Program-made: the position numbers and the translations under genes
Notes under the pieces: model-generated
Databases searched by the model: none
The model's input: the letters and a program-made list of their open reading frames with translations, nothing else
Told to the model about the DNA's origin: nothing
Assembly (NCBI GenBank): GCA_001709035.1
Contig: LVKA01000011.1
Location: forward strand, 248,001-312,000
From: Candidatus Thiodiazotropha endoloripes
Lineage (GTDB): Bacteria; Pseudomonadota; Gammaproteobacteria; Chromatiales; Chromatiaceae
Direction of reading: 5' to 3'
Length of the DNA: 64,000 nucleotides
Shown: piece after piece, positions 34,495-61,386 of the stretch
Numbering within the stretch: the first letter of the stretch is position 1
Layout: each line of letters starts with the position of its first letter

Positions 34495-35481
34495 TTATCC
34501 TCCTGACTTCGCCATGAAACGGATCAACTTCTCAGGCCGTTCACTGAACTCATGACGCTCGGGTTTGAGGGCAATGGCACGGCGCAGGTGGTCGGTCAAT
34601 CCGGTGTCGTCTATCCCATCCCGGAGTAGCTGACGCAATGGGTACGCATGCTCATGGCCCAGACATAAATAGAGATCACCGTCCACTGTCAGCCTCACCC
34701 GGTTGCAGGTCTCACAAAAGTGTTGTGATATGGGGGTGATGAAGCCGATGCGGGTATCGGTGCCTGCAAGCCGGTAGTAGCGAGCAGGACCACCACCGGG
34801 CAGTATGTCAGGTATCAACTCGATGCGCCGCTCCAGGCGTTGCCTGACGGTTTGTAGATCGATGTACTTATTCACGGCGTTGCGACCGGTATCGCCCATG
34901 GGCATGGTCTCAATGAGACGTAGTGTGAAACCTCGCTCAATGCAGTAGTCCAGAATGGCGTCGATTTCATCATCATTGACTCCTCGCATCACAACCGTGT
35001 TCACACGGATCGGCTCAAATCCTGCTGATTGGCACGCCTCTATGCCCGTCAGCACTTTGTTGAGAGAACCACCGGTAATCTTCTCGAACACTTTTGGGCG
35101 GAGGCTGTCCAGACTTACGTTGAGGCGGCTTACCCCGGCCCTGTAGAGGGGGGCTGCGAGCTTGTCCATGCGAGTGCAGTTGCTGGACAAGGCCAGGTCC
35201 GATATGCCTGGAAGATGGGCTAGACGGTCGACAAGTTCCGTTAGATCTCGACGCATCAGAGGTTCGCCACCCGTGAGGCGTATCCTGTGCACACCCATGA
35301 AGGCAAACGCCCTGGTAACACGCTCGATCTCTTCGAAGCTGAGCCAATTGGCCGGCTCCTCGAAGCCTTTAAAGCGCTTGGGCAGGCAATAACTGCAGCG
35401 CAGATCGCACCGGTCGATTACTGAGATTCTCAGATATTCAATGCGGCGTCCAAACATGTCTGTCAAGGTGTTGGATGGCAT
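34495..35481 (-). CDS. moaA: GTP 3',8-cyclase MoaA
   Basis: 328 residues, radical SAM enzyme for the first step of molybdenum cofactor synthesis. N-terminal cluster CDLRCSYC (CxxxCxxC), RLTGGEPLMRRDL, and the second cluster CETCNRVRLTVDGDLYLC (C-x2-C-x13-C). A GGAGGA ribosome-binding site precedes ATG 35481. It shares the strand of the sigma-54 regulator and lies on the putative island with a molybdopterin enzyme, so it may boost cofactor supply; no other moa/mog/moe gene is in the window. Confidence 0.95.
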   Translation of the reverse strand: MPSNTLTDMFGRRIEYLRISVIDRCDLRCSYCLPKRFKGFEEPANWLSFEEIERVTRAFAFMGVHRIRLTGGEPLMRRDLTELVDRLAHLPGISDLALSSNCTRMDKLAAPLYRAGVSRLNVSLDSLRPKVFEKITGGSLNKVLTGIEACQSAGFEPIRVNTVVMRGVNDDEIDAILDYCIERGFTLRLIETMPMGDTGRNAVNKYIDLQTVRQRLERRIELIPDILPGGGPARYYRLAGTDTRIGFITPISQHFCETCNRVRLTVDGDLYLCLGHEHAYPLRQLLRDGIDDTGLTDHLRRAIALKPERHEFSERPEKLIRFMAKSGG

Positions 35482-35565: not shown

Positions 35566-36957
35566 CTACTTCTCAATCTCGTATCGTTTCATCTTCTCCC
35601 ATAGATTCTTTCGCGAGATGCCCAGAGTATCTGCAGCCAGATTAATTTTTCTGTTGTTTTCGGCCAATGCCTTATTGATCGCCTTTCGCTCCGCTTCCTC
35701 GATAGATTGTCTCAATGTCGTAGTAGTGATCTCCCGGCTGTCAATCTCCTGGGTCTGTAGGTCAATGGCGCCGATCCAGGGAGCATCACACAAGGCGACG
35801 GCTCTCTCTATCACGTTTTTAAGTTCACGTACGTTACCTGGAAAAGTCATGGCTTGGAGCAGTAACTCAGCCTCTTTAGACAACCCTTTAATTGAGCTTC
35901 CAGACTTTTTCGTCAGATCACTGACAAATAATCTTGCCAGATAGATGATGTCTTCCCGGCGTTCCCGCAAAGGGGGGATATCTACATGTATTACATTGAG
36001 TCGCCAATAGAGATCAGACCTGAACTCTGAGGTTTCAATGGACTTTTTCAGATTGACCTGGGTAGCGGCAATGACTCTGACGTCCAGTGTGATGGGCTCT
36101 ACACCACCGACACGCTCAATTTCTCGCTCCTGCAGGACGCGCAGTAGTTTGACCTGTATGTCGGGAGAGACTTCGGCAATCTCGTCAAGGAAGATGGTGC
36201 CCCCTTGCGCTTGTTCAAAGCGGCCGATGCGTTGATGCATCGCACCGGTGAATGCCCCTTTCTCATGGCCAAACAGTTCGCTTTCGATCAGGCTGGGGGA
36301 GAGGGCGGCGCAGTTGACCCGGATCATAGGCGCCTTGGCGCGAAGGCTGTTGTTGTGGATTAGACTGGCAACAACTTCTTTACCGACACCTGACTCACCG
36401 GTGAGCAAGACTGAGCTGTCGCTCCCGCCAAGGCGTGCGACCAGTCGCTCGATTCTGCGCATTGCTGAACTCTTTCCAAGGCGTCCACTGCCGGGTTTGA
36501 ATTGTTTTTCTTCAGCGTCAGAATTGACCAGCGTTAAGCGGGTATCAGCGATGCGGGAGAGATGACGCTCCACCTTCTGAATGAAGTTGCTGATATCAAA
36601 TGGCTTGGTCAAATAATCGAGTGCTCCGGCTTTAACCAGAGTAACAGCATCGGCTATCTCTCCGTAGGCCGTTATAAGGATAACCGAAACACCGGGAAAG
36701 TGGCATGAAATATCCTTAAACAGTTCGATACCAGTGCCATCCGGTAAACGGATGTCTGTCACAACAAGATCAATGTCACCTTTTTCAAGTTCTCTTCTTG
36801 CACTGGCCATATCGCTTACAGCACGGGCAGGGATCTCTTCCAGGTGCAGTCTGTCTTCAAGGGATAGACGCATGATATCATCATCCTCAACAAGGAGTAC
36901 GCAATAAGCCTTGAGATCATTATTAATCGGAGTCTTGTCGAGACTATTCACTATCAT
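35566..36957 (-). CDS. sigma-54-dependent response regulator (NtrC family)
   Basis: 463 residues: receiver domain (phosphoacceptor Asp68 in LVVTDIRLPDG), AAA+ domain (Walker A GESGVGKE about 187-194, sigma-54 loop GAFTGA 234-239, Walker B GGTIFLDEIAEV) and a Fis-type HTH at the C-terminus (LAADTLGISRKNLWEKMKR). Its start overlaps the kinase stop by 4 bases. The divergent intergenic region has a -24/-12 promoter and two identical-core palindromes at activator distance, which this protein very probably binds to switch on the molybdoenzyme operon. Confidence 0.95.
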   Translation of the reverse strand: MIVNSLDKTPINNDLKAYCVLLVEDDDIMRLSLEDRLHLEEIPARAVSDMASARRELEKGDIDLVVTDIRLPDGTGIELFKDISCHFPGVSVILITAYGEIADAVTLVKAGALDYLTKPFDISNFIQKVERHLSRIADTRLTLVNSDAEEKQFKPGSGRLGKSSAMRRIERLVARLGGSDSSVLLTGESGVGKEVVASLIHNNSLRAKAPMIRVNCAALSPSLIESELFGHEKGAFTGAMHQRIGRFEQAQGGTIFLDEIAEVSPDIQVKLLRVLQEREIERVGGVEPITLDVRVIAATQVNLKKSIETSEFRSDLYWRLNVIHVDIPPLRERREDIIYLARLFVSDLTKKSGSSIKGLSKEAELLLQAMTFPGNVRELKNVIERAVALCDAPWIGAIDLQTQEIDSREITTTTLRQSIEEAERKAINKALAENNRKINLAADTLGISRKNLWEKMKRYEIEK

Positions 36958-38429
36958 GCTGCCTTCTTGGTGATAACCGGTATTGCCACATGAAATGTTG
37001 TACCCTGACCTTCTTCACTCTTGATCTCAATGACGCCTTCCATACTCTGGACAAGGCGGTAAATTATCCAGAGCCCCAATCCTGTACCGTCAGGTTTAGT
37101 GGTAAAAAAGGGATCAAACAGTTTGTTTCTTATATTGGATGGGATACCCGGTCCGTTGTCGCTGACTTCAATGATTAGGAATGGTCCGCTCTGATGAAGA
37201 CTGCAAATAACTGTCCCGCCATCTGCAACAATCTCTACGGCGTTCTTTAGCAGGTTACATACAATCTGTTCTGTCTTACTGGGAATATGGAGATTTTGAT
37301 CTGTATTGTTTACCCAGATAATGTCGATATCTTTGTCACCACTCTCTGCGGTAATAAGATCATGTAGTTTGTCGATGCGTTGAATGCTAATGGATTCTTC
37401 GCCACCTTCGATCTTGAGTCCCACAAGCAGATTGTGGACGATCTCTTTGATTCTGTGTAGACCCTGATCAATGACGGGTAAGTAACGATCGATGAGATCC
37501 TTATCGTTAGGGTGTTTGCGTAAGGTATCGATACAATTAAGTAAGCCGGCAAGCGGATTGTTGACTTCATGGGCGACGCCGGCAGTGATACGACCGAGTG
37601 CAACAAGTTTTTCATTCATTGCAATCTCTTCCTCAAGCATCTTCTTCTCAGCTAATTCCGCCATGATTTGATTGAAGGTGACGCTGAGACGGCCGATTTC
37701 ATCCCTCTCTTTTACCGGGATCGGTGAGAAATCAGTCATTTCTCCTCGGCCGACTGCTTCCAGCCCTTGTGTGACTGCGGTGAGAGGTTTGACCATGCGT
37801 CTGGAAACAATGGTGCCGAGAGCGCTGCCGATGATAACAAAGCAGAATATCAGGGCAAGAATGAGAATTGCTGTACTTGTTGCTTTCTCGTATAGCTGTG
37901 CGATAGACAAACGTACTCTGACAACACCCAGGTATTTTTGATCTGAGAATAATGGAACAACGCCTTCCTGGAAACCTGTCTTTGAGAAACTGTCACTGCT
38001 TATTACTATGGGTGCCCTGGTGCTCATGGCCTGCTCGTAGAGCTCCTGCTCCAGTCTGTTGCTTGGTGAAAAAGGCAGACCCATTGGGTTGTCTGCAGGG
38101 TGAAGGTGTGCCTGAATTCTGCCTTCGGCATCAAGTACCATCGCCGTTATGACACCATGATTACCTTTTGATTTCGGTCTTCTGGAAGCCATGTTTTTCA
38201 GGCTTTGATAAAGCTGCCAATAGTCTTTGCGTAGCATGGCTTTGGGGGTGGTGGTGGCGATTGATTCCGACAGCAACAGGGCCTTTTCACCAAGTACGTC
38301 ATGAAAGCGTTTCCAATCCTGGACAATCATGACACCGCCAATCATAAAACCAACAGCAGCCACAACGGTTGTAATGGTGAGCGATAGTTTTATTGCCAAT
38401 GGCCAGGTTTTAGGTTGAGTTAGCTGCAT
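36954..38429 (-). CDS. membrane sensor histidine kinase
   Basis: 491 residues. Two membrane helices (about 12-35 and 185-207) enclose a periplasmic domain of about 150 residues; HAMP (about 208-260), HisKA with His287 (GVAHEVNNPLAG) and an HATPase domain (NLLKNAVEIV, SDNGPGIP, GTGLGLWI). The HEVNNPL box is typical of NtrB/DctB-type kinases that pair with sigma-54 activators, matching the overlapping regulator gene. The PhnD-like protein encoded 14 bases upstream likely docks on its periplasmic domain. Confidence 0.94.
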   Translation of the reverse strand: MQLTQPKTWPLAIKLSLTITTVVAAVGFMIGGVMIVQDWKRFHDVLGEKALLLSESIATTTPKAMLRKDYWQLYQSLKNMASRRPKSKGNHGVITAMVLDAEGRIQAHLHPADNPMGLPFSPSNRLEQELYEQAMSTRAPIVISSDSFSKTGFQEGVVPLFSDQKYLGVVRVRLSIAQLYEKATSTAILILALIFCFVIIGSALGTIVSRRMVKPLTAVTQGLEAVGRGEMTDFSPIPVKERDEIGRLSVTFNQIMAELAEKKMLEEEIAMNEKLVALGRITAGVAHEVNNPLAGLLNCIDTLRKHPNDKDLIDRYLPVIDQGLHRIKEIVHNLLVGLKIEGGEESISIQRIDKLHDLITAESGDKDIDIIWVNNTDQNLHIPSKTEQIVCNLLKNAVEIVADGGTVICSLHQSGPFLIIEVSDNGPGIPSNIRNKLFDPFFTTKPDGTGLGLWIIYRLVQSMEGVIEIKSEEGQGTTFHVAIPVITKKAA

Positions 38430-38443
38430 TTTGAATTAAAGAA

Positions 38444-39313
38444 TTAGTCAGTTGCAATCATATTGGACAGTAGGTTATTTCTTTTGGTTGTGTTTGCCAA
38501 AGCACGTATCCCATTGAACAGGGAGTCTGAATAATGAGCAAAACCATCCAGTTTAAGTCGAGCGAGGAGTCTCTTGCCGCTTGGGTCCTGGTCCATATTC
38601 TCTAGTGTTTGCTTCATTAATTTAACCGTTGTGTGATCCACTCCTAATCGGGAAACGATTGGTGGGAAACCAAAACCTGGAGATTTCTTGATGATGCGAG
38701 TCTGTTCTGTGATGTCCGGCCTGAAAATGGCAAGGTATTCCCAGATGTAGGAATCTACCGCGCCGCCATCCGCAACCTGTTCGGAGACCGCCTGCACAGT
38801 CTCGGCGTGATTGAAGGTGAAAAAAGTATGACGGAAAAAAGTTTCGGCATCCTCATCTTGTTCAGCTATCAGGCTCAGGGGATAGAGAAAGCCGGAATTC
38901 GAGTCAGGGTCGGAGAAAGCGAAAATCTTGTCTTGTAGATCGGTAAAGCTATTATAGGGACTGGTATGGTGGACGATGATGTAAGAGTGATAACGAGGTG
39001 CTCCACGATAGACTGGTACCGTTAAAAGCTCTAGGGATTCTGGCGTTCTTTTTTGAACGTATGGATAGCCACAGATCCAGGCAAATTCAATGCCTCCAGC
39101 GGTCACGAGATCCATCACCTCTCGATATGACTTTCTGAGCACGAATTCTATCTGGCGACCCATTTTTTGTTCAAGGTATTGACTCCACTGATCGAGGAAT
39201 CTGAGATTTTCTGTGAGTACTACGGCCGTTAAGCCGAATCGGATAGGCTGTTCAGCTTTAGCTGCATAAGTGGGGGGGAGCCACAACAGTAAACAAAGAT
39301 AGATCAAACGCAC
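38444..39313 (-). CDS. PhnD-like periplasmic binding protein of a three-component sensor
   Basis: 289 residues: signal peptide (RLIYLCLLLWLPPTYAAKA), then a PhnD-type fold (PIRFGLTAVVLTENLRFLDQW, VTAGGIEFAWICGYPYVQ, FAFSDPDSNSGFLYPL). First gene of the binding protein-kinase-sigma-54 regulator operon. The same three-part design is known from arsenite-responsive AioX/AioS/AioR and ArxX/ArxS/ArxR, and TtrS carries a PhnD-like sensor domain for tetrathionate. By analogy it may sense the oxyanion-type substrate of the divergent molybdoenzyme, but the ligand cannot be named. Confidence 0.85.
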   Translation of the reverse strand: MRLIYLCLLLWLPPTYAAKAEQPIRFGLTAVVLTENLRFLDQWSQYLEQKMGRQIEFVLRKSYREVMDLVTAGGIEFAWICGYPYVQKRTPESLELLTVPVYRGAPRYHSYIIVHHTSPYNSFTDLQDKIFAFSDPDSNSGFLYPLSLIAEQDEDAETFFRHTFFTFNHAETVQAVSEQVADGGAVDSYIWEYLAIFRPDITEQTRIIKKSPGFGFPPIVSRLGVDHTTVKLMKQTLENMDQDPSGKRLLARLKLDGFAHYSDSLFNGIRALANTTKRNNLLSNMIATD

Positions 39314-39611: not shown

Positions 39612-39627
39612 GTTACCTTTCGGTAAC
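39612..39627. promoter_or_regulatory. upstream activator palindrome 1
   Basis: GTTACC-TTTC-GGTAAC, a perfect 6-bp inverted repeat with a 4-base spacer. Its centre is about 189 bases upstream of the predicted transcription start, a usual position for NtrC-family enhancer sites. The same arms recur 92 bases downstream. Confidence 0.82.
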
Positions 39628-39703: not shown

Positions 39704-39719
39704 GTTACCGTCGGGTAAC
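39704..39719. promoter_or_regulatory. upstream activator palindrome 2
   Basis: GTTACC-GTCG-GGTAAC, arms identical to palindrome 1, spacer sequence different. Centre about 97 bases upstream of the predicted start. Conserved arms with variable spacer are the pattern expected of a dimer binding site, probably for the regulator at 35566-36957. Confidence 0.82.
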
Positions 39720-39782
39720 AAAAGCCTTGACCATCTGTGTTGTGAAAGCATTTATTTGTGATATTTCAACTAGATGAGAATT

Positions 39783-39798
39783 TGGCAAGCCTCTTGCT
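39783..39798 (+). promoter_or_regulatory. sigma-54 (-24/-12) promoter
   Basis: TGGCAAGCCTCTTGCT matches the TGGCAC-N5-TTGCW consensus, with GG at 39784-39785 and GC at 39796-39797, exactly 10 bases apart. Transcription should start near 39809, about 56 bases before the cytochrome ATG. The adjacent sigma-54 activator gene strengthens the call. Confidence 0.85.
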
Positions 39799-39864: not shown

Positions 39865-41448
39865 ATGACCATGAGTAGTGATAGTGGCTTTGGGTTTCAT
39901 GTGACCTGGAGACTGTTATTGGTTCTATTCATTGGTGTTACTGCCGCGCTCTTAATCACTTATCAGGGGGTTGAGTATTATACCTCCCAGTCCTCGTTTT
40001 GTGGTGGTAGCTGCCACACCATGGCAGAGCAGTATGAAGCCTGGAAGAGTGATTCTCATCATAAAGAAAATAATCCAGATGGGATGCAAGCGGATTGTAT
40101 CGATTGTCACTTTCTGCCGGGTGAGCATAAGTCATTGAAGGCAAAATATGAGGGCTTACGTCATCTTGCAGCTTACCTTTACGATCCTGATGCTCCACTG
40201 CCGATTCGTCCTGTTATAAAGGATGGAGCCTGTCTTCAGTCAGGTTGCCATAATCAGCATCAGTTGGCACAGAAGGAGATAGCGCTTACTGAAAATGTCC
40301 GCTTCAAACACGAGATACATTTTAGTGACAAGGCGCTTGATGGATACAAGATAACTTGTGATACCTGTCATTTCAAAACAACAGAAAAAAAACATTTCGA
40401 GGTACCGCATGAGATCTGTTTTCTCTGTCACTTGAAACTACAGAAGCCCACGCTGGAAATAGCCAAAATGGGTGAATGTTGTGAAGATGGCAGTTTTGAA
40501 AAGATCAGTTTTGCAGGCAAGCCTTCTGTCAACTTCAATGAGGGAAAATCTCGATGTGATATCTGTCATACGATCCCGGTAACCTCATTACAGAGCCAGT
40601 TGCAGGTCGATGATGACACAACGACGAAGAACCCGATTACCCATCAGACCATTCAAGAAGCGGATGTTGCCTGTGAGAGTTGCCATTTTGAGGTGGTAAA
40701 GGGTCATGGCGAAATCGAAATAGGAAATGTGGTCTCGAATGGATGTCTGACCTGTCACAACCGGAGTCAGACCCTGCTGGCATCTTCGGGGGATCAGGCT
40801 CTGATGCATGACAAACACATACCTGACAAGGCTGACTGTTTTGACTGTCATAGCGTTGTTGAACACAGGAACAGAACAGATCATCTCGATTTTGTACGGG
40901 AGGATTGTCAGCTGTGTCATGTCAATCAGCATAAATACCAGAAGCTGCTCCTCTCCGGTGAGCCTGTAGATAGTGATATTTCCGGTGCGCCACACCTGAT
41001 GTACGAAGTCAATGTAAATTGTATGGCCTGCCATCTTAAAAAGGCAATAAGCCGGGGTCACGATGTAAGAACTGCTGCCGGAGATACCTGTGCTGCCTGT
41101 CATACAGAGCAACACTACAAAATGCTCGATGATTGGAAAAAACAATTGGAGAGTGAAGTCGTAAGCGCTGAAGAGGTTGAAAGTGAGGCGCTGCAACTTC
41201 TTTCCGCATCAAGAGACAGTCTAAGCAAGCAACAATTGAATCAAGCTCAAGAGATGATCGCTAAAGGGAGTGAGCTGCTCAATATTGTACGGGTCGGAAA
41301 TGGCGTGCATAACAAGAAATATGCAATCACCATTCTCGATGGTGCATTTGGAAATTTTGAAGAGACTATTGAGCTAATTGAAGGTGCAGAGGTGATTGAC
41401 CAGGGAGTGTCTCAAGCGCCATATACAAGTTCGGAGGTGATGAGATGA
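39865..41448 (+). CDS. membrane-anchored multihaem cytochrome c (12 haem motifs)
   Basis: 527 residues from ATG 39865, chosen because GGAGG lies 5 bases upstream (ATG 39871 also possible). One membrane helix (about 15-37) anchors a periplasmic domain with ten CXXCH sites plus two variants: the first, CGGSCH (CX3CH, residues 46-51, followed by TM as in NapC/NrfH-type quinol-side haems), and the third, CLQSGCH (CX4CH). A helical tail without haem motifs (about 420-527) follows. The operon lacks an NrfD/PsrC-type membrane subunit, so this protein most likely passes electrons from the quinol pool to the iron-sulfur and molybdopterin subunits. First gene of a sigma-54-controlled operon. Confidence 0.93.
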   Translation: MTMSSDSGFGFHVTWRLLLVLFIGVTAALLITYQGVEYYTSQSSFCGGSCHTMAEQYEAWKSDSHHKENNPDGMQADCIDCHFLPGEHKSLKAKYEGLRHLAAYLYDPDAPLPIRPVIKDGACLQSGCHNQHQLAQKEIALTENVRFKHEIHFSDKALDGYKITCDTCHFKTTEKKHFEVPHEICFLCHLKLQKPTLEIAKMGECCEDGSFEKISFAGKPSVNFNEGKSRCDICHTIPVTSLQSQLQVDDDTTTKNPITHQTIQEADVACESCHFEVVKGHGEIEIGNVVSNGCLTCHNRSQTLLASSGDQALMHDKHIPDKADCFDCHSVVEHRNRTDHLDFVREDCQLCHVNQHKYQKLLLSGEPVDSDISGAPHLMYEVNVNCMACHLKKAISRGHDVRTAAGDTCAACHTEQHYKMLDDWKKQLESEVVSAEEVESEALQLLSASRDSLSKQQLNQAQEMIAKGSELLNIVRVGNGVHNKKYAITILDGAFGNFEETIELIEGAEVIDQGVSQAPYTSSEVMR

Positions 41449-41463
41449 ACAGGAGAGAACAAG

Positions 41464-42318
41464 ATGAGTGATAAAAAAGCACCCGATGTCAGTCGTCGGA
41501 AGTTCCTAACGGATGCTGGAGTGGCAGCAGTAGGTGCTGCAGCAGCAGCGACACCTGGAGTGAGTCTTCAGGCTGCTGAATCCAAAAAGGCGCCGCGCTG
41601 GGCAATGGTGATGGACCTTAGGCGGTGTATAGGATGCAGGGCGTGTACAGTAGCCTGTAAATCGGAAAACAGGGTCTCCCTTGGTCGATTCAGAGCTGTA
41701 ATTCAAGAAAAAACCACGGGAACTTTTCCAAATACGAAGAAGGCATTTTTGCCTCTGATGTGTAATCATTGCGAAGGAAATAAGAAAGACGGTGTTCCCC
41801 CCTGTGTTAAAGCGTGTCCTGAGTATCCTGGCGCGCGTGCCAAGTTCAAGACAGCTGATGGTAAGACCATACGTTACCGTAGTGGTGCAACTTACAAGCG
41901 ACCGGATGGCTTGATCCTGATAGATAAGGAAAAGTGCATCGGTTGCGGAAAATGTATTGATGCCTGCCCTTATGGCGTTCGGTCATTTGATCCATTTGTA
42001 AAGGCCGGTGGTGATCCAAGCAAGCAGGCAGCAGACAAATGCGACATGTGCGCCCATCGTGTCGATAATGGTGTTGAACCGTCCTGTGTCAATACCTGTC
42101 AAGGACGAGCTCGAATATTTGGTGATCTTAATGATCCGGACAGTCAGGTGTCCAAGCTTGTCAAAGAGCATAATCTGGCTACACCCGAAAATGTACTGCT
42201 TCATGAGAAAGATACCAATCCTCATGTGTTTTATATCGATCCCGATAACTTGTTGAAAACACTCTATACACAACGAAAGAAGGGCAAACTGGACCATTTT
42301 GTGGATCAGATCGTGTAA
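41464..42318 (+). CDS. Tat-exported 4x[4Fe-4S] ferredoxin subunit
   Basis: 284 residues. Twin-arginine signal SRRKFLTDAG (residues 10-19) then four Cys sets: C55/58/61/65, C100/103/114/118, C158/161/164/168 and C193/196/208/212, giving four [4Fe-4S] clusters as in PsrB/TtrB/NrfC. The N-terminal Tat signal puts it in the periplasm next to the cytochrome and molybdenum subunit. A clear AGGAGAG precedes the start; 15 bases follow the cytochrome stop. It should wire the multihaem cytochrome to the molybdopterin enzyme. Confidence 0.94.
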   Translation: MSDKKAPDVSRRKFLTDAGVAAVGAAAAATPGVSLQAAESKKAPRWAMVMDLRRCIGCRACTVACKSENRVSLGRFRAVIQEKTTGTFPNTKKAFLPLMCNHCEGNKKDGVPPCVKACPEYPGARAKFKTADGKTIRYRSGATYKRPDGLILIDKEKCIGCGKCIDACPYGVRSFDPFVKAGGDPSKQAADKCDMCAHRVDNGVEPSCVNTCQGRARIFGDLNDPDSQVSKLVKEHNLATPENVLLHEKDTNPHVFYIDPDNLLKTLYTQRKKGKLDHFVDQIV

Positions 42319-42350
42319 TCCCTGTGAGCTTGTATTGGAGAGGAATTGAT

Positions 42351-44873
42351 ATGAAAAAGTTAAATCGTCGTAATTTTATGAAACTGGCTGCAGGCAGTAG
42401 CTGTGCGATGGCTGCAGGGTTGGGCCTTAATCAAAAAGCACTGGCCGGATCAATCAAGCTGCAGGAAGGGGGGCGTGATTTTTCTCCCACTACAAAGAAG
42501 GAGCTTCAGGCAATCCCCACAGCTTGCTGGCAGTGCGTCACCCGAGATGCCATGATCGGTTATGTGGAAGATGGTCGTGTGGTGAAGTTGGAGGGCCATC
42601 CTGACTCTATACGGACCTTGGGTAAACTCTGCGCCAAGGGTCAGGCTGGCATTAATCATGTTTACTTTCCAGACCGTATTCTCTATCCGATGCTGCGTGC
42701 CGGAAAGCGTGGTGAACATAAATGGAAACGGATTTCGTGGGACGAGGCTCTGGACTTGATGGCATCGAAGCTGAAACCGCTGCTTTATGCAGGTACACCA
42801 GAGTTATTTATGTATCAATACGGGCGTCATAAGGGCAGTCAGTCTTCGATCATGCATGATTTCATGGATGCCTTCGGATCACAAACTATCGGCACTCACA
42901 CATCAGTATGTGAAGGACCTAAATGGGTTGGGCAGGAGAGTCTGTGGGGCGGCATGTATGATAATTGGGACTACGATCATACCGATTTTGTGGTTAATTT
43001 CGGTTCCAACCAGTTCGAAACCCATACCAACCACATCCCAACGTCGCAGCGCCTGATCCGGGCAATGGTTGAGCGAAATGTACCGCTATATACCTTCGAT
43101 GTGCGTCTTTCAAATACTGCTGCCAAGTCCACTGAATGGATCCCCATCAATGTCGGCATGGACGGTTTGGTGATGTTGTCGATGGTCAATGTCATCATGA
43201 ACGAAGGCATTTTTAGAAAGGATCACCTGAAATACATGCGCGTATCACCGGATTATCATGCGACTGAAAGTGAAAAAATAGCTGCGATCAAAGAGCATGT
43301 GGCCAAGTTTACCCCGGAATATGCTGCAAAAGAGAGTGGAGTGCCGGCTGAAAAAATCAGGCAGATTGCTCGTGGATATGCAAAAGCGAAATCGGCCTGC
43401 CTTATCGGCTATCGTGGTACGGTGATGCATTATCACGGAGCAGACCAGGAGCGTGCTGCGATGTTGCTGTCGGCGATAACCAATAACCTTGACAGAAAAG
43501 GCGGTCGGATCATGGGTGTAGGTGCTGGCTGGAAACATCCTCATTCACCTAAAGCCAAAATTCAAAAAGGGCTTGATATCGTTAACGGTTTTCCCGGTGA
43601 GGCTGCTTTCCCGACCCATCAATGCAGCCAGCAGAATCTACCGATGATCAAAGATGGTCAAAATGGAAGGCCGAAAGTCTACTGGTCAAGTTGCAATAAT
43701 CAAGCCTTCATTAACGGCAATAACATAGAAGCGGAAGCGGTTCTGAAAGATGAGAGCTTGATTCCCTTTTACGTGAATACAAACATTGTCTATGATGAAT
43801 CGTCTCAATACGCCGACCTCATACTGCCGGATGTCACCTATTTGGAGCGATGGGATTATGAAGATATGGTGTCACCAACCGGGGTTGCAGAATACTACAT
43901 ACGCCAACCTCTCATAAAACCACTTGGTGAGGCGCGGGATCAGGGCGAGGTATTTTCCGGTTTGGCGAAACGGTTGGGCATTAAACTTGCGTACACAACC
44001 AAGGAAGAATATGTCCGCCAATCTTGCGAGATGACACCCGGTGTCAAGGAGGCCGGCGGTTTTGAATACATGAAGAAGCATGGGGTCTGGCACGACAAGG
44101 ATGCCAAGCCAAATCATGGTTTTTATGAAGCCAAAGTGGATGTGTCCGGTGACGGGATTATTCTCGATGAAAAGACCGGCGTCTATTGGAACTATAAGAA
44201 GGCAGGGGTCACTGAGGCTGAAGCCAGAAGCAAAGGCTTTCTGGGGGTGGAGGGTGCCAAGAATGCCTATGTTGCCCAGGACATTGAAGGTACGCCGCGT
44301 AAGGCCTATCCTCCAAACACATCGTTCGTGAAATCCGGGCTGCTTGACTTCTATTCCGACAATTTCGCGTCAAAGGGATTTCCCGCATTCCCTACCTACA
44401 CGCCTGTGCCTGAGCATCAGAAGATGGGCAAGGATGACTTGCATCTTACTACCTATAAGGTCGCCGTACATACCCATTCACGTACGGCTCATTGCAAGTG
44501 GCTTTCTGAGATAAAGCATGATAATCCGGCTTGGATTAATAGTAAAACCGCTGCAGAGCGGGGCATAAAAGAGGGAGATCGTATCAAGGTGGCCAGTGAC
44601 CTGGGTGAGATAACCACCACTGCCCACGTTACCGAGGGCATTATTCCCGGCATCATTGCAATTTCACACCACTTTGGGCGTCAACAGTCCGGTATATACG
44701 GCTCGGGGAAAAGTTCACCCACTCCGGGCGGTGCTGCGGCTGACCCGGATGCTAACAACAAGTGGTGGGACAAACACGGCATTCATCCCAACTCGATCAT
44801 TCCTAACAGTTCGGATCCGATCAGTGGTGGGCAACGCTGGATGGATACGGTTGTCAGGGTTGTGAAAGCGTAA
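42351..44873 (+). CDS. Tat-exported molybdopterin oxidoreductase, catalytic subunit
   Basis: 840 residues from ATG 42351 (GGAGAGG upstream). Twin-arginine signal NRRNFMKLAAG. The [4Fe-4S] site reads C59-x2-C62-x3-D66-x27-C94: spacing is exactly that of the PsrA/TtrA/ArrA family, but Asp replaces the third Cys. The probable molybdenum ligand is Cys187 in THTSVCEGPK, placing it in the Cys-ligated group (polysulfide, thiosulfate, tetrathionate, arsenate reductases and ArxA). The C-terminal molybdopterin-dinucleotide domain begins near HTHSRTAHCKW. Context shows a periplasmic respiratory enzyme fed by a multihaem cytochrome; substrate and direction are unknown. Confidence 0.93.
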   Translation: MKKLNRRNFMKLAAGSSCAMAAGLGLNQKALAGSIKLQEGGRDFSPTTKKELQAIPTACWQCVTRDAMIGYVEDGRVVKLEGHPDSIRTLGKLCAKGQAGINHVYFPDRILYPMLRAGKRGEHKWKRISWDEALDLMASKLKPLLYAGTPELFMYQYGRHKGSQSSIMHDFMDAFGSQTIGTHTSVCEGPKWVGQESLWGGMYDNWDYDHTDFVVNFGSNQFETHTNHIPTSQRLIRAMVERNVPLYTFDVRLSNTAAKSTEWIPINVGMDGLVMLSMVNVIMNEGIFRKDHLKYMRVSPDYHATESEKIAAIKEHVAKFTPEYAAKESGVPAEKIRQIARGYAKAKSACLIGYRGTVMHYHGADQERAAMLLSAITNNLDRKGGRIMGVGAGWKHPHSPKAKIQKGLDIVNGFPGEAAFPTHQCSQQNLPMIKDGQNGRPKVYWSSCNNQAFINGNNIEAEAVLKDESLIPFYVNTNIVYDESSQYADLILPDVTYLERWDYEDMVSPTGVAEYYIRQPLIKPLGEARDQGEVFSGLAKRLGIKLAYTTKEEYVRQSCEMTPGVKEAGGFEYMKKHGVWHDKDAKPNHGFYEAKVDVSGDGIILDEKTGVYWNYKKAGVTEAEARSKGFLGVEGAKNAYVAQDIEGTPRKAYPPNTSFVKSGLLDFYSDNFASKGFPAFPTYTPVPEHQKMGKDDLHLTTYKVAVHTHSRTAHCKWLSEIKHDNPAWINSKTAAERGIKEGDRIKVASDLGEITTTAHVTEGIIPGIIAISHHFGRQQSGIYGSGKSSPTPGGAAADPDANNKWWDKHGIHPNSIIPNSSDPISGGQRWMDTVVRVVKA

Positions 44874-44902
44874 TTTTGTGTGTATCTAACCGGAGGGTTG
44901 AG

Positions 44903-45556
44903 ATGGAAACTGACTGGAAAGCGTTGGCTGATAGTGCAAAATCAAGAAGCGATATCTATGGGCTGTTGAGCGCAGTTTTCCGGGAGGAGCCCACCGAGAC
45001 CCTGATTAGACAGATGAAAGGTCCCCAATTACTGGGGGCCTTCACCAGCCTGGGTGTCAAATTAGGTGAGCGATTTTATACCGACCCTGAATCTGAGGTG
45101 GTGGAACAGTTGGCTATCGAATATAGCCGCTTATTTATAGGGCCTGGTCCGCATATATCGCCACATGAATCAATTTTTATCGACGCAGAGCATGGAGAAG
45201 CTGGCCTGTGGGGAGTGCAGACCGTTGAAGTAAAAAAATTTATCGAAACAACTGGTCTCGATTATGATTCAGGGTTCTGCGGGGTTCCCGATCACGTTAG
45301 TGTTGAGCTTGAGTTCATGCAGAAGCTGAGTGAGTGGGAGGCAGATAAATGGTTACAAGAAGATCGCAAGAGTGCAGAATACTGTCTGACTGTACAGCGT
45401 ATGTTTCTGGAAAAACACCTGTTATGTTGGCTGGCCCGATTCTGTGATGAAGTAATGGATCAGGCGCAACTGCCTTTTTACCGAGCTATAGCGGATTTAA
45501 CCAAGACTTATATGGAATACGAAAGGGAGAGTATTGCACCCCCAGTATCTGCTTGA
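44903..45556 (+). CDS. TorD/DmsD-family molybdoenzyme chaperone
   Basis: 217 residues from ATG 44903 after GGAGGG. All-helical TorD family signature YSRLFIGPGPHISPHESIF, then the conserved FCGVPDHVSVELEFMQKL. Such chaperones bind the Tat signal of their partner and delay export until the cofactor is inserted; the partner is the upstream molybdopterin subunit (29 bases away). Last gene of the operon; a tRNA 3' remnant follows 97 bases later. Confidence 0.93.
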   Translation: METDWKALADSAKSRSDIYGLLSAVFREEPTETLIRQMKGPQLLGAFTSLGVKLGERFYTDPESEVVEQLAIEYSRLFIGPGPHISPHESIFIDAEHGEAGLWGVQTVEVKKFIETTGLDYDSGFCGVPDHVSVELEFMQKLSEWEADKWLQEDRKSAEYCLTVQRMFLEKHLLCWLARFCDEVMDQAQLPFYRAIADLTKTYMEYERESIAPPVSA

Positions 45557-47746: not shown

Positions 47747-48106
47747 CCAGTATGGCAGCTCAAGAGCAGTAATATCTACAAAATCAATACCCGATAGATG
47801 ATTTTAAATTGACCTCGCAGCCCTGATGGCGCTGTAGAGTTACTCTTTTGAAAATAATAGAGCAAAATCCATTCAGATTGAGTGTTCAATGATGGTTGAA
47901 AATAAACTTTCGAGCATTATCTCTACTAGGGCCTGTTAACACTAATTATTTGTGTGTGACATTGAGTGTGTTGATATAGCCCTATTGTTGTTAACTGATT
48001 CTAGCTCGTAATTCCGAACAAAGCGCTTAAATAATTCGAGTTTTAATCTGCTATCGCCACCCATACTATGTCACCAGGATCAATATTCAGTTAGCGGTGG
48101 TATTTG
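47747..48106. other. intergenic region with an imperfect inverted repeat
   Basis: 360 bases without a gene. GGGCCTGTTAACAC at 47929-47942 and a loosely complementary GTGTGTTGATATAGCCC ending at 47982 form an imperfect inverted repeat. The left arm resembles the arm of the long hairpin at 19723-19739, which hints at a dispersed element. Confidence 0.4.
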
Positions 48107-48739
48107 ATGGACATAAAAAGAGTATCGACAATTTCTCCGGCTGGTCTGTTAGCCAAATTGAATCAGGGTATGAACTTAGAGTTGCTTGATGTTCGAACGG
48201 CTGCTGAATACAGAGGTGGTCATATTCCCGGATCAAAACTGTTATCTCTTGATGAGATCAGCGATGAATCCCTTGCTCAGCAGCTTGGCCAGTCGATAGA
48301 AAGAGGTCTGGCCCCAACTTACCTTACCTGTAAAAGTGGTATTATTATTTTTGCCGCCCCTGATGATGCCCAAAGATTACGCAATGAGTTTCCAGTGAGT
48401 TTGCATGGGCAGAACATTCTAACGCCGAGCAGTGGCAGCAGCCTGAGACGAAATCTTGAAATCAGGTTCCAGCGCCAGCAGACCGAACCGTTGGTGGTCG
48501 CGGAATTTGAGGGCCGAGCGTTGATGAAGACCTTTGGTGAACGTGGTACAGGGGTATTTACCTCACCAACTGCTGTGGAGCGGGATGTGATCGACAAGTA
48601 TCGTGTCGAGGTTGTGGGACGCTCCGACGAAATAACCGAAAGTTTCTTTGTGATATCCCCTGAACGGCATGTCAAACACCCAGCGGTCAATACCATTACT
48701 CAGGCGGCAAAAATAACCTATTCAAATAGGGTTGCTTGA
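48107..48739 (+). CDS. chimeric protein: rhodanese N-terminus fused to NhaR-type LysR C-terminus
   Basis: 210 residues from ATG 48107. Residues about 20-78 are the start of a rhodanese (LELLDVRTAAEYRGGHIPGS, active-site Cys in YLTCKSG). Directly after CKSG the sequence changes to the effector-binding C-terminus of an NhaR-like LysR regulator: IIIFAAPDDAQRLRNEFP, VAEFEGRALMKTFGERGTGVF, SFFVISPERHVKHPAV. The rhodanese is cut in its active-site loop and the NhaR part has lost its HTH, yet the frame is intact. A deletion joining two neighbouring genes is the simplest origin. Expression and function are doubtful. Confidence 0.82.
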   Translation: MDIKRVSTISPAGLLAKLNQGMNLELLDVRTAAEYRGGHIPGSKLLSLDEISDESLAQQLGQSIERGLAPTYLTCKSGIIIFAAPDDAQRLRNEFPVSLHGQNILTPSSGSSLRRNLEIRFQRQQTEPLVVAEFEGRALMKTFGERGTGVFTSPTAVERDVIDKYRVEVVGRSDEITESFFVISPERHVKHPAVNTITQAAKITYSNRVA

Positions 48740-57488: not shown

Positions 57489-57753
57489 TGGGTTAGGGTC
57501 TGCTTGGTCTGATTTTCCTTATCATTGAAAGCATATTTACCGGCTCTCAATCAAAGCGTCAACCAGCTCACCGGTGCAGCACAATCCATTCTCTTAGGAT
57601 CCGGAGCTGTTGTTTGCTAAGCCCTTGTCGTTAAAGGGTGAACAACCAGCGCCGATAACTTCATTTATAGGCTTTTTTATTGATGCTGGCCCTGGCCGGC
57701 CTGATTTTTTCAGAATGTTTAAATCTATGCTTAATCATCCAGGCTGTAAGCGG

Positions 57754-60700
57754 ATGTGGTTTTCCAGACGGATCACTCTGCTGTTTCTGTTAATACTTGC
57801 CTGGAGCGGCCCACTCTTGTCGGCCAATAATCTGCAACAGACTGACAGTGATTACCAATCCGTTGTTCTGCAGCTGAAGTGGAAGCATCAGTTTCAATTT
57901 GCCGGATACTATGCAGCCAAGGCAAAGGGGTATTACAGAGAGTTGGGTCTGGAGGTGGAAATCAGAGAGCATCAGGGACGCGCCCCGGTTGAAGTGATGC
58001 TAGACGGTGAGGCGGATTATGCCGTCAGTGGGGCGGATGCATTGATTAAACGGGCCAATGGTTATCCGGTGGTGGCCCTGGCGGCAATCTATCAGCACAG
58101 CCCCTACGCCTTATTGGTGAGAGGCGATTCAGGTATTCACCAGGTTTCCGATCTGGCCGGGCGACGGGTGATGATCGGCAGTGGCAGGCAGGATGCTGCA
58201 CTCCATGCGATGCTGAAAAGGGGCGGGCTTACCAGCGATGACTATGTACGTCTGCCCAGCAGTTTTGATGCGAATTCATTGGTGGCCGGTGAAACTGATG
58301 CGTTCAATGCTTATATGACTGATCAGGGGTTTCTGCTGGGTGAGGCGGGTGTGGCACCCCGATACATCATACCGAAGGATTATGGTATCGACTTCTATGG
58401 CGATGTGCTGATTACGACCGAGCAGCAGATCAGTGAAAACCCAGAGCAAGTAGAAAACTTCCGCAACGCCACGCTCAAGGGTTGGGCCTATGCGCTGGCT
58501 AATCGGGATGAGATCGTTGATCTGATACTACAGAAGTACAATACCCAGGGTATGTCCCGTGCCCATCTTGTCTATGAAGCTAATCTCTCCAAAGAGTTGA
58601 TTCAGCCGTTGTTGGTAGAGGTCGGCTACATGCACCCTGAGCGTTGGAGGCAGATCCATGAAATATTCATTGAATTGAATTTTCTCGGTGAGAACAGCCG
58701 TATCGAAGGGTTGTTATATCAGGCAAGATCCCCCATACCAGACTGGTTGAGCTGGAGCTATGAAAATTATATTTTTGTCTTAATTGGCGTGCTTACAACT
58801 GTCGGTTTGCTGTTATCGATGGCCATCGTCAGACTCAAGCTGCTGGTCAGGAAACATACCGCTGAACTGATCGAAAAAGAGCGTGGATACAGAACAATAT
58901 TTGATGCCGCACCGGAAGGGATGTGGGTCATTGATCCTGAACGTAAGACGCTCGATGTCAATGAGCGATTACGAGAGCTGCTGGGTTATAGCAAAGAAGA
59001 GATGCAGGGAAAAACCCCAATGGAGTTTGTCGACGAGGCAAACAAACTGATTTTTATTGAACAAACAAACAAGATCAGCAAAACCGATAGGCGCAGTTAC
59101 GATGTTGAGCTTCAGCATAAGGATGGCTACAACATACCAACCCACTTCAGTGCAGTTACCTTGAGGCAGCAGGATGGGAGTGTGTTCTCCTCGATCGCCT
59201 TTGTTGAGGATATTACGGAGCGTAAAAGACTGGAGGCGGAGTTACGAGCCGGTGAGCAGAATCTGCGGCGTCTGATCAATTCACAGCCGGCTTGTGTCAG
59301 TACCATTGGAAAAGATGGTGAGTTGCTCAGTATTAATCCCAAAGGGCTTGAGATCATTCAAGCGGAATCATTGGATCAGCTCCCAAAGACTATACTTTTT
59401 GATTTGATTGATGAGCCTTATAAGGAGGCGTTTGAACAGATCAATCAATTGGTATTTGATGGTCAGAGCACATCTTTGACGTTCAGTATTACCGGTTTGA
59501 AAGGCAGGCATATCTGGCTGGAAACCCATGCGGTACCGATCATGGATTCTGAAGGTGCGGTTATCGAGCACCTTGGGTTGACCCATGATGTGACCGATCG
59601 TCTTAATATGGAGATGCAGGTTTACCAAGAGCGTGAGTTTTTGCAGACAGTGATCGATAACATCACAGACGCGGTGATGGTGATCGATACCGATCTGCAG
59701 ATTCAATTGTTGAACAAGAGTGTCAAGCGGGTGCTGAAGGGATTTGGTTTTGAGCGTGAACAACCAAAGTACTACTTTGATCTGCCATTTGTTTCATACC
59801 CAGCAGATGGATCTGATGCTCAGAATTGTCCTGTTCACCGGGTACTTGAAAACGGGCGTCAGGCCAGTGCAATCTTGTCCCGGCCCTTTTCATCAAACAG
59901 TAGTAGTTTGAAGCGGGTGGAGGTGATCGCCTCTCCTTTGCTGAACAGTGATGGCACTCTACGTGGCGTTATCGAAGTGGCCAGGGATATCACTGAGCAT
60001 CTTGAGCTCTTGGATGAGGTTAAACAGCAAAAGGACAACCTGCAACATCTCGCCCACCATGATTCACTGACCAATCTGCCCAACAGAGCACTGTTTCTGA
60101 TGCGCTTACAACAGGCGATCAGTAAAGCAAAACGTAGCAACACTCAGCTGGCGGTGCTGTTTGTCGATCTGGATCGATTCAAAGAGATCAACGACAGTCT
60201 TGGCCATGCAGTTGGCGATATGGTCTTGAAAGAGGTTGCCAAGCGTTTTTCAGACAGTGTGCGGGAAGAGGATCTGTTGGCTCGGTTGGGAGGCGATGAA
60301 TTCACTTTCATATCCGAGGGCCTGAACAAACCACAGCACGCGGCAATTGTGGCACAGCAGATTATCCACTCTCTGGAGCTGCCGTTTGAAATGGATAATC
60401 ATCAGTTCTTTCTTACCGCGAGTATCGGCATCAGCGTCTATCCTCAGGATGGCCGAACCGCAGACACCCTGCTGCGCAATGCGGATGCGGCGATGTATAA
60501 GGCCAAGGACGAGGGTAAGAATACATTCCAGTACTATACCGCTGACATGACCGAGCAGGCCTTTGAGAGAATATTTCTCGAATCAAGTTTGCGACGGGCA
60601 TTGGTCGAGGATCAATTGGTCGTCTACTACCAACCTCAATATGCTACAGCCGGTGGTGACCTGATCGGTGTGGAAGCCTTGGTACGTTGGATGCATCCCG

Positions 60701-61386
60701 ATATGGGTATGGTTTCACCTTCGAGATTTATCCCATTGGCTGAGGATACCGGCCTGATCATTTCATTGGGTGAGCAGGTGTTACGAATTGCCTGTAAGCA
60801 GATGGCAAGTTGGAATGAGCAGGACATAGCGCCAAAGAGGTTGGCGGTCAATCTCTCGGTAAAACAGATAAGCAGTGCTGAACTTATACCGACCATCAAA
60901 ACCATACTGGAAGAGACAGGGTGCCGGGCTGAGTGGCTTGAGTTTGAGGTGACTGAAGGCTTCCTGATGAAAGACCCTGAGGCATCAGTTTCCATACTGC
61001 AGCAGTTGCGAGATCTTGGTGCGGACCTGGCGGTGGATGATTTTGGGACAGGTTACTCATCGCTGGCGTATCTGAAGCGGTTTCCATTGACACGGCTGAA
61101 AATTGATCGTTCGTTTATACATGATGTGCCTGGAGATGGTGATGATGTGGCAATAACTCGTGCGATCATTGCAATGGCCAAGAACCTGAATCTGAATGTG
61201 CTGGCAGAAGGTGTGGAGAACGAGGAGCAGAGAAGCTTTCTGGTGGCTGAGGGCTGTAATGATGCCCAGGGTTTCTATTTTGGGCGGCCGCTATCCGCTG
61301 CAGATACCAGTAAACTATTGATCAAGGAAAAAGCTAGCGCCAGTAACTCCTCTGCTTCGGATCTGTCTGATCCGTTACGCGGTTAG
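57754..61386 (+). CDS. NMT1-like sensor with PAS, GGDEF and EAL domains
   Basis: 1210 residues from ATG 57754, chosen because it starts a clean signal peptide (ITLLFLLILAWSGPLLSA); ATGs at 57715 and 57727 are alternatives. Periplasmic NMT1/THI5-like binding domain (about 35-290: LKWKHQFQFAGYYAAKAKGYY), membrane helix about 337-360, three PAS-like regions (about 375-790), GGDEF domain with intact GGDEF at 846-850 and EAL domain with EAL at 974-976 and downstream NLSVKQ, FEVTEG, DDFGTGYSS. The binding domain family usually recognises thiamine-pyrimidine precursors or related small molecules. It probably couples a periplasmic ligand to cyclic-di-GMP turnover. Confidence 0.92.
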   Translation: MWFSRRITLLFLLILAWSGPLLSANNLQQTDSDYQSVVLQLKWKHQFQFAGYYAAKAKGYYRELGLEVEIREHQGRAPVEVMLDGEADYAVSGADALIKRANGYPVVALAAIYQHSPYALLVRGDSGIHQVSDLAGRRVMIGSGRQDAALHAMLKRGGLTSDDYVRLPSSFDANSLVAGETDAFNAYMTDQGFLLGEAGVAPRYIIPKDYGIDFYGDVLITTEQQISENPEQVENFRNATLKGWAYALANRDEIVDLILQKYNTQGMSRAHLVYEANLSKELIQPLLVEVGYMHPERWRQIHEIFIELNFLGENSRIEGLLYQARSPIPDWLSWSYENYIFVLIGVLTTVGLLLSMAIVRLKLLVRKHTAELIEKERGYRTIFDAAPEGMWVIDPERKTLDVNERLRELLGYSKEEMQGKTPMEFVDEANKLIFIEQTNKISKTDRRSYDVELQHKDGYNIPTHFSAVTLRQQDGSVFSSIAFVEDITERKRLEAELRAGEQNLRRLINSQPACVSTIGKDGELLSINPKGLEIIQAESLDQLPKTILFDLIDEPYKEAFEQINQLVFDGQSTSLTFSITGLKGRHIWLETHAVPIMDSEGAVIEHLGLTHDVTDRLNMEMQVYQEREFLQTVIDNITDAVMVIDTDLQIQLLNKSVKRVLKGFGFEREQPKYYFDLPFVSYPADGSDAQNCPVHRVLENGRQASAILSRPFSSNSSSLKRVEVIASPLLNSDGTLRGVIEVARDITEHLELLDEVKQQKDNLQHLAHHDSLTNLPNRALFLMRLQQAISKAKRSNTQLAVLFVDLDRFKEINDSLGHAVGDMVLKEVAKRFSDSVREEDLLARLGGDEFTFISEGLNKPQHAAIVAQQIIHSLELPFEMDNHQFFLTASIGISVYPQDGRTADTLLRNADAAMYKAKDEGKNTFQYYTADMTEQAFERIFLESSLRRALVEDQLVVYYQPQYATAGGDLIGVEALVRWMHPDMGMVSPSRFIPLAEDTGLIISLGEQVLRIACKQMASWNEQDIAPKRLAVNLSVKQISSAELIPTIKTILEETGCRAEWLEFEVTEGFLMKDPEASVSILQQLRDLGADLAVDDFGTGYSSLAYLKRFPLTRLKIDRSFIHDVPGDGDDVAITRAIIAMAKNLNLNVLAEGVENEEQRSFLVAEGCNDAQGFYFGRPLSAADTSKLLIKEKASASNSSASDLSDPLRG

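Follow-up and report, generated by a model that had tools for sequence, protein, structure and literature searches.

Here we describe a stretch of 64,000 nucleotides from Candidatus Thiodiazotropha endoloripes (positions 248001-312000 of contig C10, LVKA01000011.1, in a genome of 4.87 Mb; the whole stretch is called the window), whose genus comprises chemosynthetic symbionts of lucinid clams (passages of PMC6872982). The window carries a four-gene operon on the forward strand (39865-45556), delimited from the list of open reading frames (ORFs) and profile searches, that encodes in this order a dodecahaem cytochrome c, an iron-sulfur (Fe-S) protein, a molybdopterin (Mo) subunit and a TorD chaperone. 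We propose, tentatively and well short of even confidence, that these genes specify a periplasmic, quinone-linked arsenic oxyanion oxidoreductase that would act as an arsenite oxidase. A preliminary description of the operon had held that sequence alone does not decide the substrate, which appears too pessimistic, since a sensor of the AioX family, an operator shared with arx and arsenic genes near relatives suggest arsenic. Arsenic is favoured because these three lines of evidence, each of which alone could mislead, agree. Most of the information on the substrate is carried by the regulator genes at 35566-39313, which were absent from that description.

These regulator genes are transcribed divergently from the operon and encode, on the reverse strand, a PhnD-like periplasmic sensor of the AioX/ArxX/ArrX family (38444-39313; profiles, PDB match, alignment and tree), a sensor histidine kinase (36954-38429; profiles) and a sigma-54 response regulator (35566-36957; profiles) whose best NCBIfam match is AtoC, under the cut-off; moaA follows. 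The best match of the sensor in the PDB was AioX of Rhizobium NT-26 with 210.5 bits, followed by ArrX with 139.5 and PhnD with 60.9, and its identity to AioX (39.5%) exceeds that to ArrX (32.1%). In AioX arsenite is bound to C106 within a pocket made of Y88, C106, Y131, S161, S163, H192 and D210, and arsenite was the sole ligand of AioX and ArxX among ten oxyanions, with no binding of antimonite, selenate, tetrathionate or thiosulphate, according to passages of PMC5908839. Our alignment indicated that the window sensor keeps all seven residues of this arsenite-binding pocket, as do 35 of 41 other sensors of the family, the remaining six carrying Thr at position 163. The window sensor is placed among AioX, ArxX and ArrX by a quick tree, many forks of which are weak; the sensors of loci L026 and L060 join two ArxX proteins (support 97), that of L097 lies inside the AioX group (97) and those of L062 and L071 join ArrX (95), while of the five sensors that have no Mo neighbour four group together at a distance and the remaining one, L174, is close to ArrX. 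A survey of 398 genomes of the phylum (E 1e-40) matched 26 genomes at 28 places, 12 of them scoring at least 250 bits. Eleven of these 12 were examined (one of two copies in G070 was left out), and the sensor stood beside AioA in five (scores of 1075 to 1310 bits, the cut-off being 359), beside ArxA with GRGWG in two (L166 and L167) and beside the Mo family of the window in two (the window and L165), with no molybdoenzyme found in the 19 kb covered for the other two; four of the 16 weaker places were also examined, and none showed a molybdoenzyme ORF. A second molybdoenzyme of 886 residues adjoins the arx operon of L166 (11005-13665), with GTTACC-type palindromes before it at 10808 and 10850, and is perhaps another arsenic-regulated enzyme.

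The second line of evidence is the operator. A pattern search located two exact GTTACC-N4-GGTAAC sites before the operon, the putative operator palindromes GTTACCTTTCGGTAAC (39612-39627, forward strand) and GTTACCGTCGGGTAAC (39704-39719, forward strand), which are spaced 92 bases apart and of which 0.05 were expected allowing up to one mismatch. The same approach identified one putative sigma-54 promoter, TTGGCAAGCCTCTTGCT (39782-39798, forward strand), where 0.11 were expected and at least one appeared in 11 of 100 shuffles; the putative RpoN promoter of arx given in PMC5908839, tggcaaggctattgct, has tggcaagcctcttgct as its window counterpart. The AtoC-type sigma-54 regulator together with an RpoN-type promoter conforms to the AioXSR/ArxXSR family. 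Paired palindromes 91-93 bases apart precede the cytochrome gene in six of the seven Thiodiazotropha copies (window counted; L038 has one palindrome) and also in the alphaproteobacterial loci L067 and L072, and at least one palindrome occurs in 15 of the 17 alpha- and gammaproteobacterial copies (in L044 just within the ORF). The more relaxed GTTAC-N6-GTAAC was found at 78 sites in 44 of 96 family loci, some of which are near-copies and so do not represent 44 independent events, as against 0, 1 and 2 loci for three control palindromes of identical composition. The motif is also present between the X gene and the arx genes in both Arx loci, and was not found in five Aio loci.

The third line comes from genes beside the relatives of the operon. 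Two cytochrome-type loci, L049 (bacterium BMS3Abin06) and L108 (BMS3Bbin08), carry ArsR-type, ACR3, ArsD, ArsA-like and ArsC-like genes about 0.2 and 2.7 kb, respectively, beyond TorD. Their ACR3 (463.6 and 468.5 bits; cut-off 282.8), ArsD (123.7 and 126.6; cut-off 90) and ArsR/SmtB-subfamily proteins (103.2 and 100.9; cut-off 55) exceeded their cut-offs, ArsA passed the broad TRC40/GET3/ArsA subfamily only and ArsC stayed under its cut-offs. Among operons that carry an NrfD gene, ACR3 lies near those of L079 (353.8 bits, incomplete at a contig end), L087 (395.6) and L110 (368.2), and an ACR3 arsenite pump is annotated near the operon on plasmid pAZKH of Azoarcus KH32C. Clear ACR3 genes occur in six of 99 family loci (1.53 Mb) and in two separate clades, where about 0.2 loci were expected from 20 ACR3 genes over the cut-off in 40 genomes of relatives (145 Mb, of one class). 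Two further matches are doubtful (L057 with 91.4 bits, under the cut-off, and a 31-residue fragment in L086), and L104 has ArsA-like, ArsC-like and ArsR-like genes with no ACR3 match.

The enzyme itself is encoded by closely packed genes, the gaps from each stop codon to the next ATG being 15, 32 and 29 bases, and we do not regard the operon as a chance arrangement because its gene order recurs across loci. All four genes listed in the preliminary description are present at its coordinates on the forward strand, and the synteny search that it had suggested recovered the order cytochrome-FeS-Mo-TorD in all seven orthologous Thiodiazotropha loci with flanks (window counted) and cytochrome-FeS-Mo in 16 of 80 named-genome loci among the matches listed, besides an incomplete second copy in L068. 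Clustering of 449 flanking ORFs from 56 loci yielded no non-core family common to all cytochrome-type loci. The Fe-S subunit (41464-42318, forward strand; profiles and motif count) has 16 Cys, every one within four ferredoxin-type [4Fe-4S] motifs, and an RRKFL motif recognised by eye, in agreement with its earlier description as a Tat-dependent protein with four clusters. The Mo subunit (42351-44873, forward strand, from ATG 42351; 840 residues; profiles, alignment, fold and tree) likewise bears out the earlier claim of a Tat-dependent molybdopterin protein with a Cys ligand, having RRNFMK by eye and Cys187 at the position of the Mo ligand; in its N-terminal cluster the third ligand position is occupied by Asp66 instead of Cys. 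Its Molybdopterin, Molydop_binding and Fe4S4 domains place it in the DMSO reductase family, and the fold agrees, ArrA being the nearest solved one. The expected TorD/DmsD-family chaperone was matched by profile search on the forward strand (44903-45556, with ATG 44903 as likely start of an ORF that opens at TTG 44876).

None of the curated models gave an equivalog for the Mo subunit. The best NCBIfam match was PhsA (NF012032; 319.5 bits against a cut-off of 694), and the ArrA (NF041714; 168 against 1600) and TtrA (NF011567; 107.5 against 1750) models likewise stayed under their cut-offs. We also ran the phylogeny that the preliminary description had called for, with rows of ArrA and ArrA-like proteins, TtrA, PhsA, SoeA and DmsA and no row of ArxA, AnrA, SrdA or SrrA; the PhsA reference was that of an E. 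coli plasmid, as the genome search gave no PhsA in 200 genomes or in controls. The Mo subunit fell outside all of these tested references, and no placement inside a characterised clade with the same subunit set, which that description had named as a reason to abandon its reading, was found among them. The residues around the Mo ligand form the pattern His-x3-Cys-x3-Lys, as in PhsA, with Lys at +4 from the ligand; we rejected active-site residues as a guide to the substrate, as PhsA too has this His and Lys and every reference shown has the His.

The cytochrome (39865-41448, forward strand; 527 residues; profiles, motif scan and model) has an N-terminal anchor, a NapC/NirT-like first domain and a haem-free C-terminal helical region. 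Motif counting confirmed the 12 haem motifs previously claimed, ten of them CXXCH, the first CX3CH (CGGSCH) and the third CX4CH (CLQSGCH), and the claimed single anchor corresponds to one hydrophobic helix that an AlphaFold model of poor quality (mean pLDDT 54.4) places at residues 15-40. The Pfam domain PF03264 (NapC/NirT, N-terminal) matched with 58.8 bits over a cut-off of 24.1, the NrfH model reached 60.5 bits, under its cut-off of 134.2, and CHxM follows haem 1 in a NapC/NirT-like first haem region. The cytochrome family is rare, the genome of the window giving the sole match (E 1e-30) among 398 genomes drawn from the phylum. In 27 cytochrome rows (2 incomplete at a contig end) the first motif is CX3CH in 17, from gamma- and alphaproteobacterial loci, CGYCH in nine, from deltaproteobacterial and BMS3 loci, and CHSCH in L113. 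The cytochrome tree shows the same three groups as the Mo-subunit tree, namely deltaproteobacterial, BMS3 and alpha/gamma.

That the cytochrome replaces the polytopic quinone subunit, as had been proposed, is supported by comparison with relatives. No NrfD-like ORF was seen among the four genes or the immediate neighbours scanned, in line with the reported absence of an NrfD/PsrC-type subunit; a polyferredoxin gene is missing from the operon as well, and its gene set is not the arxB'ABCD one with an integral membrane ArxC. The relatives that are 53-55% identical, L025 from another Thiodiazotropha and L026 from a genome of the same family, have the arrangement FeS-NrfD-Mo-TorD, and Pfam identifies the NrfD of both (128.2 and 154.6 bits; cut-off 25.8). 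Because these relatives hold NrfD at the position of the NapC/NirT-like cytochrome within the same gene order, the sequence comparison supports a subunit swap. Among 91 Mo-subunit rows, 24 are linked to a cytochrome, 43 to NrfD and 24 to neither or are undetermined, some of the last owing to a contig end; the cytochrome label requires five changes on the Mo tree, as against 21.5 in shuffles, and a single origin of the linkage is neither shown nor excluded. The cytochrome-linked rows include L113 (2-1531, a Nitrospinae genome), where a cytochrome relative with 15 motifs, incomplete at the contig end, stands upstream of FeS-NrfD-Mo, so that cytochrome and NrfD occur together. Comparison of the sequences also indicates that the cytochrome is not a substitute for NrfD everywhere, as several deltaproteobacterial and BMS3 relatives differ in N-terminus and neighbours: the N-termini of CGYCH-type cytochromes resemble signal peptides by eye, and octahaem cytochromes and NrfD-like proteins adjoin the operon in several of these loci. 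In L053 and L055 the Mo genes are in tandem, with no NrfD or cytochrome match before the second and with one more protein between them, weakly CHASE3-like in L053.

Within the genus the system is widespread. A search of 56 genomes, 22 of them of the genus (own genome counted), found the Mo subunit in 18 of the 22 at no less than 78% identity and the cytochrome in the same 18 (in G012 a stop lies inside the Mo match, and in G019 two contigs each carry part of the cytochrome), and a scan of named genomes gave at least 80 loci.

In the working model that we favour, arsenite outside the inner membrane would bind the AioX-like protein and the histidine kinase would relay the signal to the sigma-54 regulator, which would bind the two GTTACC-N4-GGTAAC sites and switch the operon on. 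TorD may aid insertion of the molybdenum cofactor. Both the Mo subunit and the Fe-S subunit would be carried out of the cytoplasm by Tat in folded form. Arsenite would then be oxidised at the Mo site, and its electrons would run over the N-terminal cluster and the four clusters of the Fe-S subunit to the twelve haems and finally reach, at the membrane, a quinone site like that of NapC/NrfH, in the position that NrfD takes in relatives. The genes, their order, the kinship of the sensor, the operator sites and the subunit swap are directly supported, and from these we infer the arsenic substrate, the direction, the quinone site, the assembly and the binding of the palindromes by the regulator.

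Several observations weigh against an arsenite oxidase. The XSR regulators appear exchangeable, because their phylogenies differ from those of the Mo subunits (passages of PMC5908839), and five sensors that have no Mo neighbour (L174-L178) keep the pocket, one of them with Thr163; we therefore rejected the pocket as sole proof of arsenic. The window sensor belongs to a 23-row group (support 99), with other cytochrome-linked sensors, L105 and ArrX-like rows, that holds ArrX and neither AioX nor ArxX. ArxA has the signature XGRGWG and ArrA has (R/K)GRY near the pocket (passages of PMC6549141), and the Mo subunit has neither GRGWG nor (R/K)GRY, showing QYGRHK instead. The palindrome was seen before the cytochrome gene in none of the nine deltaproteobacterial and BMS3 copies and the sigma-54 pattern in only five of the 17 alpha/gamma copies; L049 and L108 have no XSR genes within the stretch examined, and no ars gene was found in the window, in the other Thiodiazotropha loci or in the cytochrome-type alphaproteobacterial copies. 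Finally, cytochromes of the NapC/NrfH type normally oxidise quinol, which favours a reductase.

Both electron directions, as the preliminary description had them, are still entertained. It is rather unlikely, but to be taken seriously, that the same arsenic enzyme runs in reverse, the NapC-like cytochrome oxidising quinol and arsenate (or thio- or methylated arsenate) being reduced, for which CymA of Shewanella, which feeds ArrAB, offers an analogy. The NapC/NirT domain and the ArrA fold are in keeping with this direction, as are the sister cytochrome-type operons in metagenome-assembled genomes (MAGs) of Desulfobacteraceae and Syntrophobacterales, presumed anaerobes, the ArrX-like rows that group with the window sensor, and the sensors of L045 (a deltaproteobacterial MAG) and L050 (Desulfobacula), which, like that of L062 (an Aminicenantes MAG), are closer to ArrX and come from presumed anaerobes. 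We lean to arsenite oxidation because the window sensor is nearest to AioX by score, as it is by identity, the operator is that of arx operons and the regulator belongs to the sigma-54 AtoC type, unlike ArrR, which is CitB-like (passages of PMC5908839). The hosts of the NrfD relatives, which include denitrifiers and purple sulfur bacteria, were also counted for oxidation.

We consider it unlikely that the operon encodes a reductase of a sulfur, selenium, antimony or other oxyanion, the reading of the preliminary description, with a recruited or re-tuned arsenic-type sensor. Such a reductase would fit the PhsA model as best curated match (319.5 of 694 bits), the PhsA-like Lys and the same-pocket sensors without molybdoenzyme neighbours; it is opposed by the operator common to arx, by the arsenic genes near relatives in two separate clades and by the ligand tests, in which AioX and ArxX bound arsenite and not antimonite, selenate, tetrathionate or thiosulphate (passages of PMC5908839). 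A different electron route that overlaps the other readings, in which the cytochrome would exchange electrons not with quinone but with a terminal oxidase by way of a soluble cytochrome c, is suggested by the presence, close to the operon in four alphaproteobacterial loci (L043, L044, L052 and L063), of a small cytochrome c that resembles cbb3 subunit III and by the signal-peptide-like N-termini of deltaproteobacterial and BMS3 cytochromes, yet it is improbable in view of the hydrophobic helix and CHxM-bearing first haem region retained by the window cytochrome and of a pattern search that detected no such cytochrome c in Thiodiazotropha loci.

More broadly, and likewise short of even confidence, respiratory arsenic molybdoenzymes may comprise one more lineage in addition to Aio, Arx/Arr and the archaeal enzyme, to which these operons would belong. 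It would be marked by arx-type sensing, by an Asp in place of the third Cys of the N-terminal cluster and by a quinone module that can be exchanged, being either NrfD or a NapC-like wire of 12 haems, one of them a CX3CH haem. Spread over lucinid clam symbionts, uncultured alphaproteobacteria, BMS3 bacteria and relatives of sulfate reducers, the lineage might oxidise arsenite in thioautotrophs and denitrifiers and reduce arsenate in strict anaerobes. If this is true, lucinid symbionts have a concrete candidate for arsenic respiration in 18 of 22 genomes of the genus, the partner of one catalytic core varies by lineage between NrfD and a 12-haem cytochrome, and the substrate question of a DMSO-reductase clade is narrowed to a few direct assays. 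It would also caution that an annotation as dmsA/B/D-like in lucinid symbionts does not always mean DMSO respiration. Highly expressed DMSO-reductase-like genes have been reported for Ca. Thiodiazotropha (passages of PMC6872982 and PMC12172469); they are not assignable to the present operon, as the own genome also has a DmsA-like operon, and were not used as evidence. That second operon (L127, 2249-7086 on contig C14) includes a pentahaem cytochrome, scores 626.5 bits on the dmsA_ynfE model (cut-off 777.7) and is a possible source of the reported expression.

Other molybdoenzymes and neighbouring features were noted. Two other Thiodiazotropha loci (L185, 4756-10403, and L187, 6520-12167) carry a molybdoenzyme that scores 350-383 bits with the AioA model, whose cut-off is 359, accompanied, by eye, by a Rieske-like and two dihaem-peroxidase-like genes, a cluster that we take to resemble iodate reductase (Idr). 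A search of 30 genomes found this cluster in six, each of them a member of the genus other than the own genome, and in G003 the cytochrome operon is about 6 kb away. An ArrA-like operon of G020, of the same genus (L130, 675-7330; 1133 bits against 1600, with RGRY), shows another module arrangement, in which a protein of the cytochrome b561 family accompanies a 9-haem cytochrome and no NrfD was seen. A secreted-looking protein with a CGWWG motif (CGWWGDGE) is encoded close to the operon in some members of the genus and two alphaproteobacteria (L033, 7325-8050; L041, 11259-11861; L072, 11197-11898) and is absent from the window genome; in L033 it reaches 27.3 of 27 bits on a dual-specificity phosphatase model, its catalytic Cys apparently missing by eye. 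In the window, MoaA (34495-35481, reverse strand; profile searches), for molybdenum cofactor synthesis, lies beyond the regulators and may serve the system. Two adjoining TonB-dependent receptors of 734 and 738 residues with very similar N-termini (13553-17970) appear to be a tandem duplication, a 1258-residue protein (57610-61386) combines PAS, GGDEF and EAL domains with a binding domain of the NMT1 type, and a rhodanese domain with a partial LysR substrate domain, under the cut-off, is encoded 2.5 kb after TorD (48104-48739).

We recognised no description of this cytochrome-FeS-Mo-TorD operon in the open literature searched, the subscription literature being mostly outside the search. The Cys-ligated oxyanion families are Psr/Phs/Srr, Arx/Arr and Ttr/Srd (passages of PMC7331816 and PMC10100899), and seemingly novel lineages close to them are mentioned in PMC10100899. 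With PhsABC/PsrABC the operon shares the best NCBIfam match and the PhsA-like His-x3-Cys-x3-Lys, but the score is under half of the cut-off, the tree position is separate and an anchor gene of the Phs/Psr kind is lacking. The order of ttrBCA is Fe-S gene, membrane module and Mo gene, and the NrfD relatives share this order with TtrABC/SrdBCA, whereas the Mo subunit (107.5 bits against 1750) lies in a clade separate from TtrA. NapC and CymA have four haems; the window cytochrome shares with NapC/NirT/NrfH/CymA the N-terminal Pfam domain and the CHxM after haem 1 but differs by its 12 haems, its CX3CH haem 1 and a score under the NrfH cut-off. ArrAB differs in that the Mo subunit reaches 168 of 1600 bits and lacks (R/K)GRY, and the window operon adds the dodecahaem subunit. 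The FeS-NrfD-Mo-TorD operon on pAZKH of Azoarcus KH32C has a homologous Mo subunit (37%) and X-S-R regulators but NrfD for the cytochrome, and its nearby ACR3 is absent from the window. Although the window operon lacks the GRGWG, NrfD and arxB' gene of Arx (arxB'ABCD with arxXSR) and has a cytochrome instead, it shares with that system the divergent X-S-R genes, the sigma-54 promoter, the GTTACC-type palindromes, the Mo and Fe-S genes and TorD (passages of PMC5908839 and PMC6549141).

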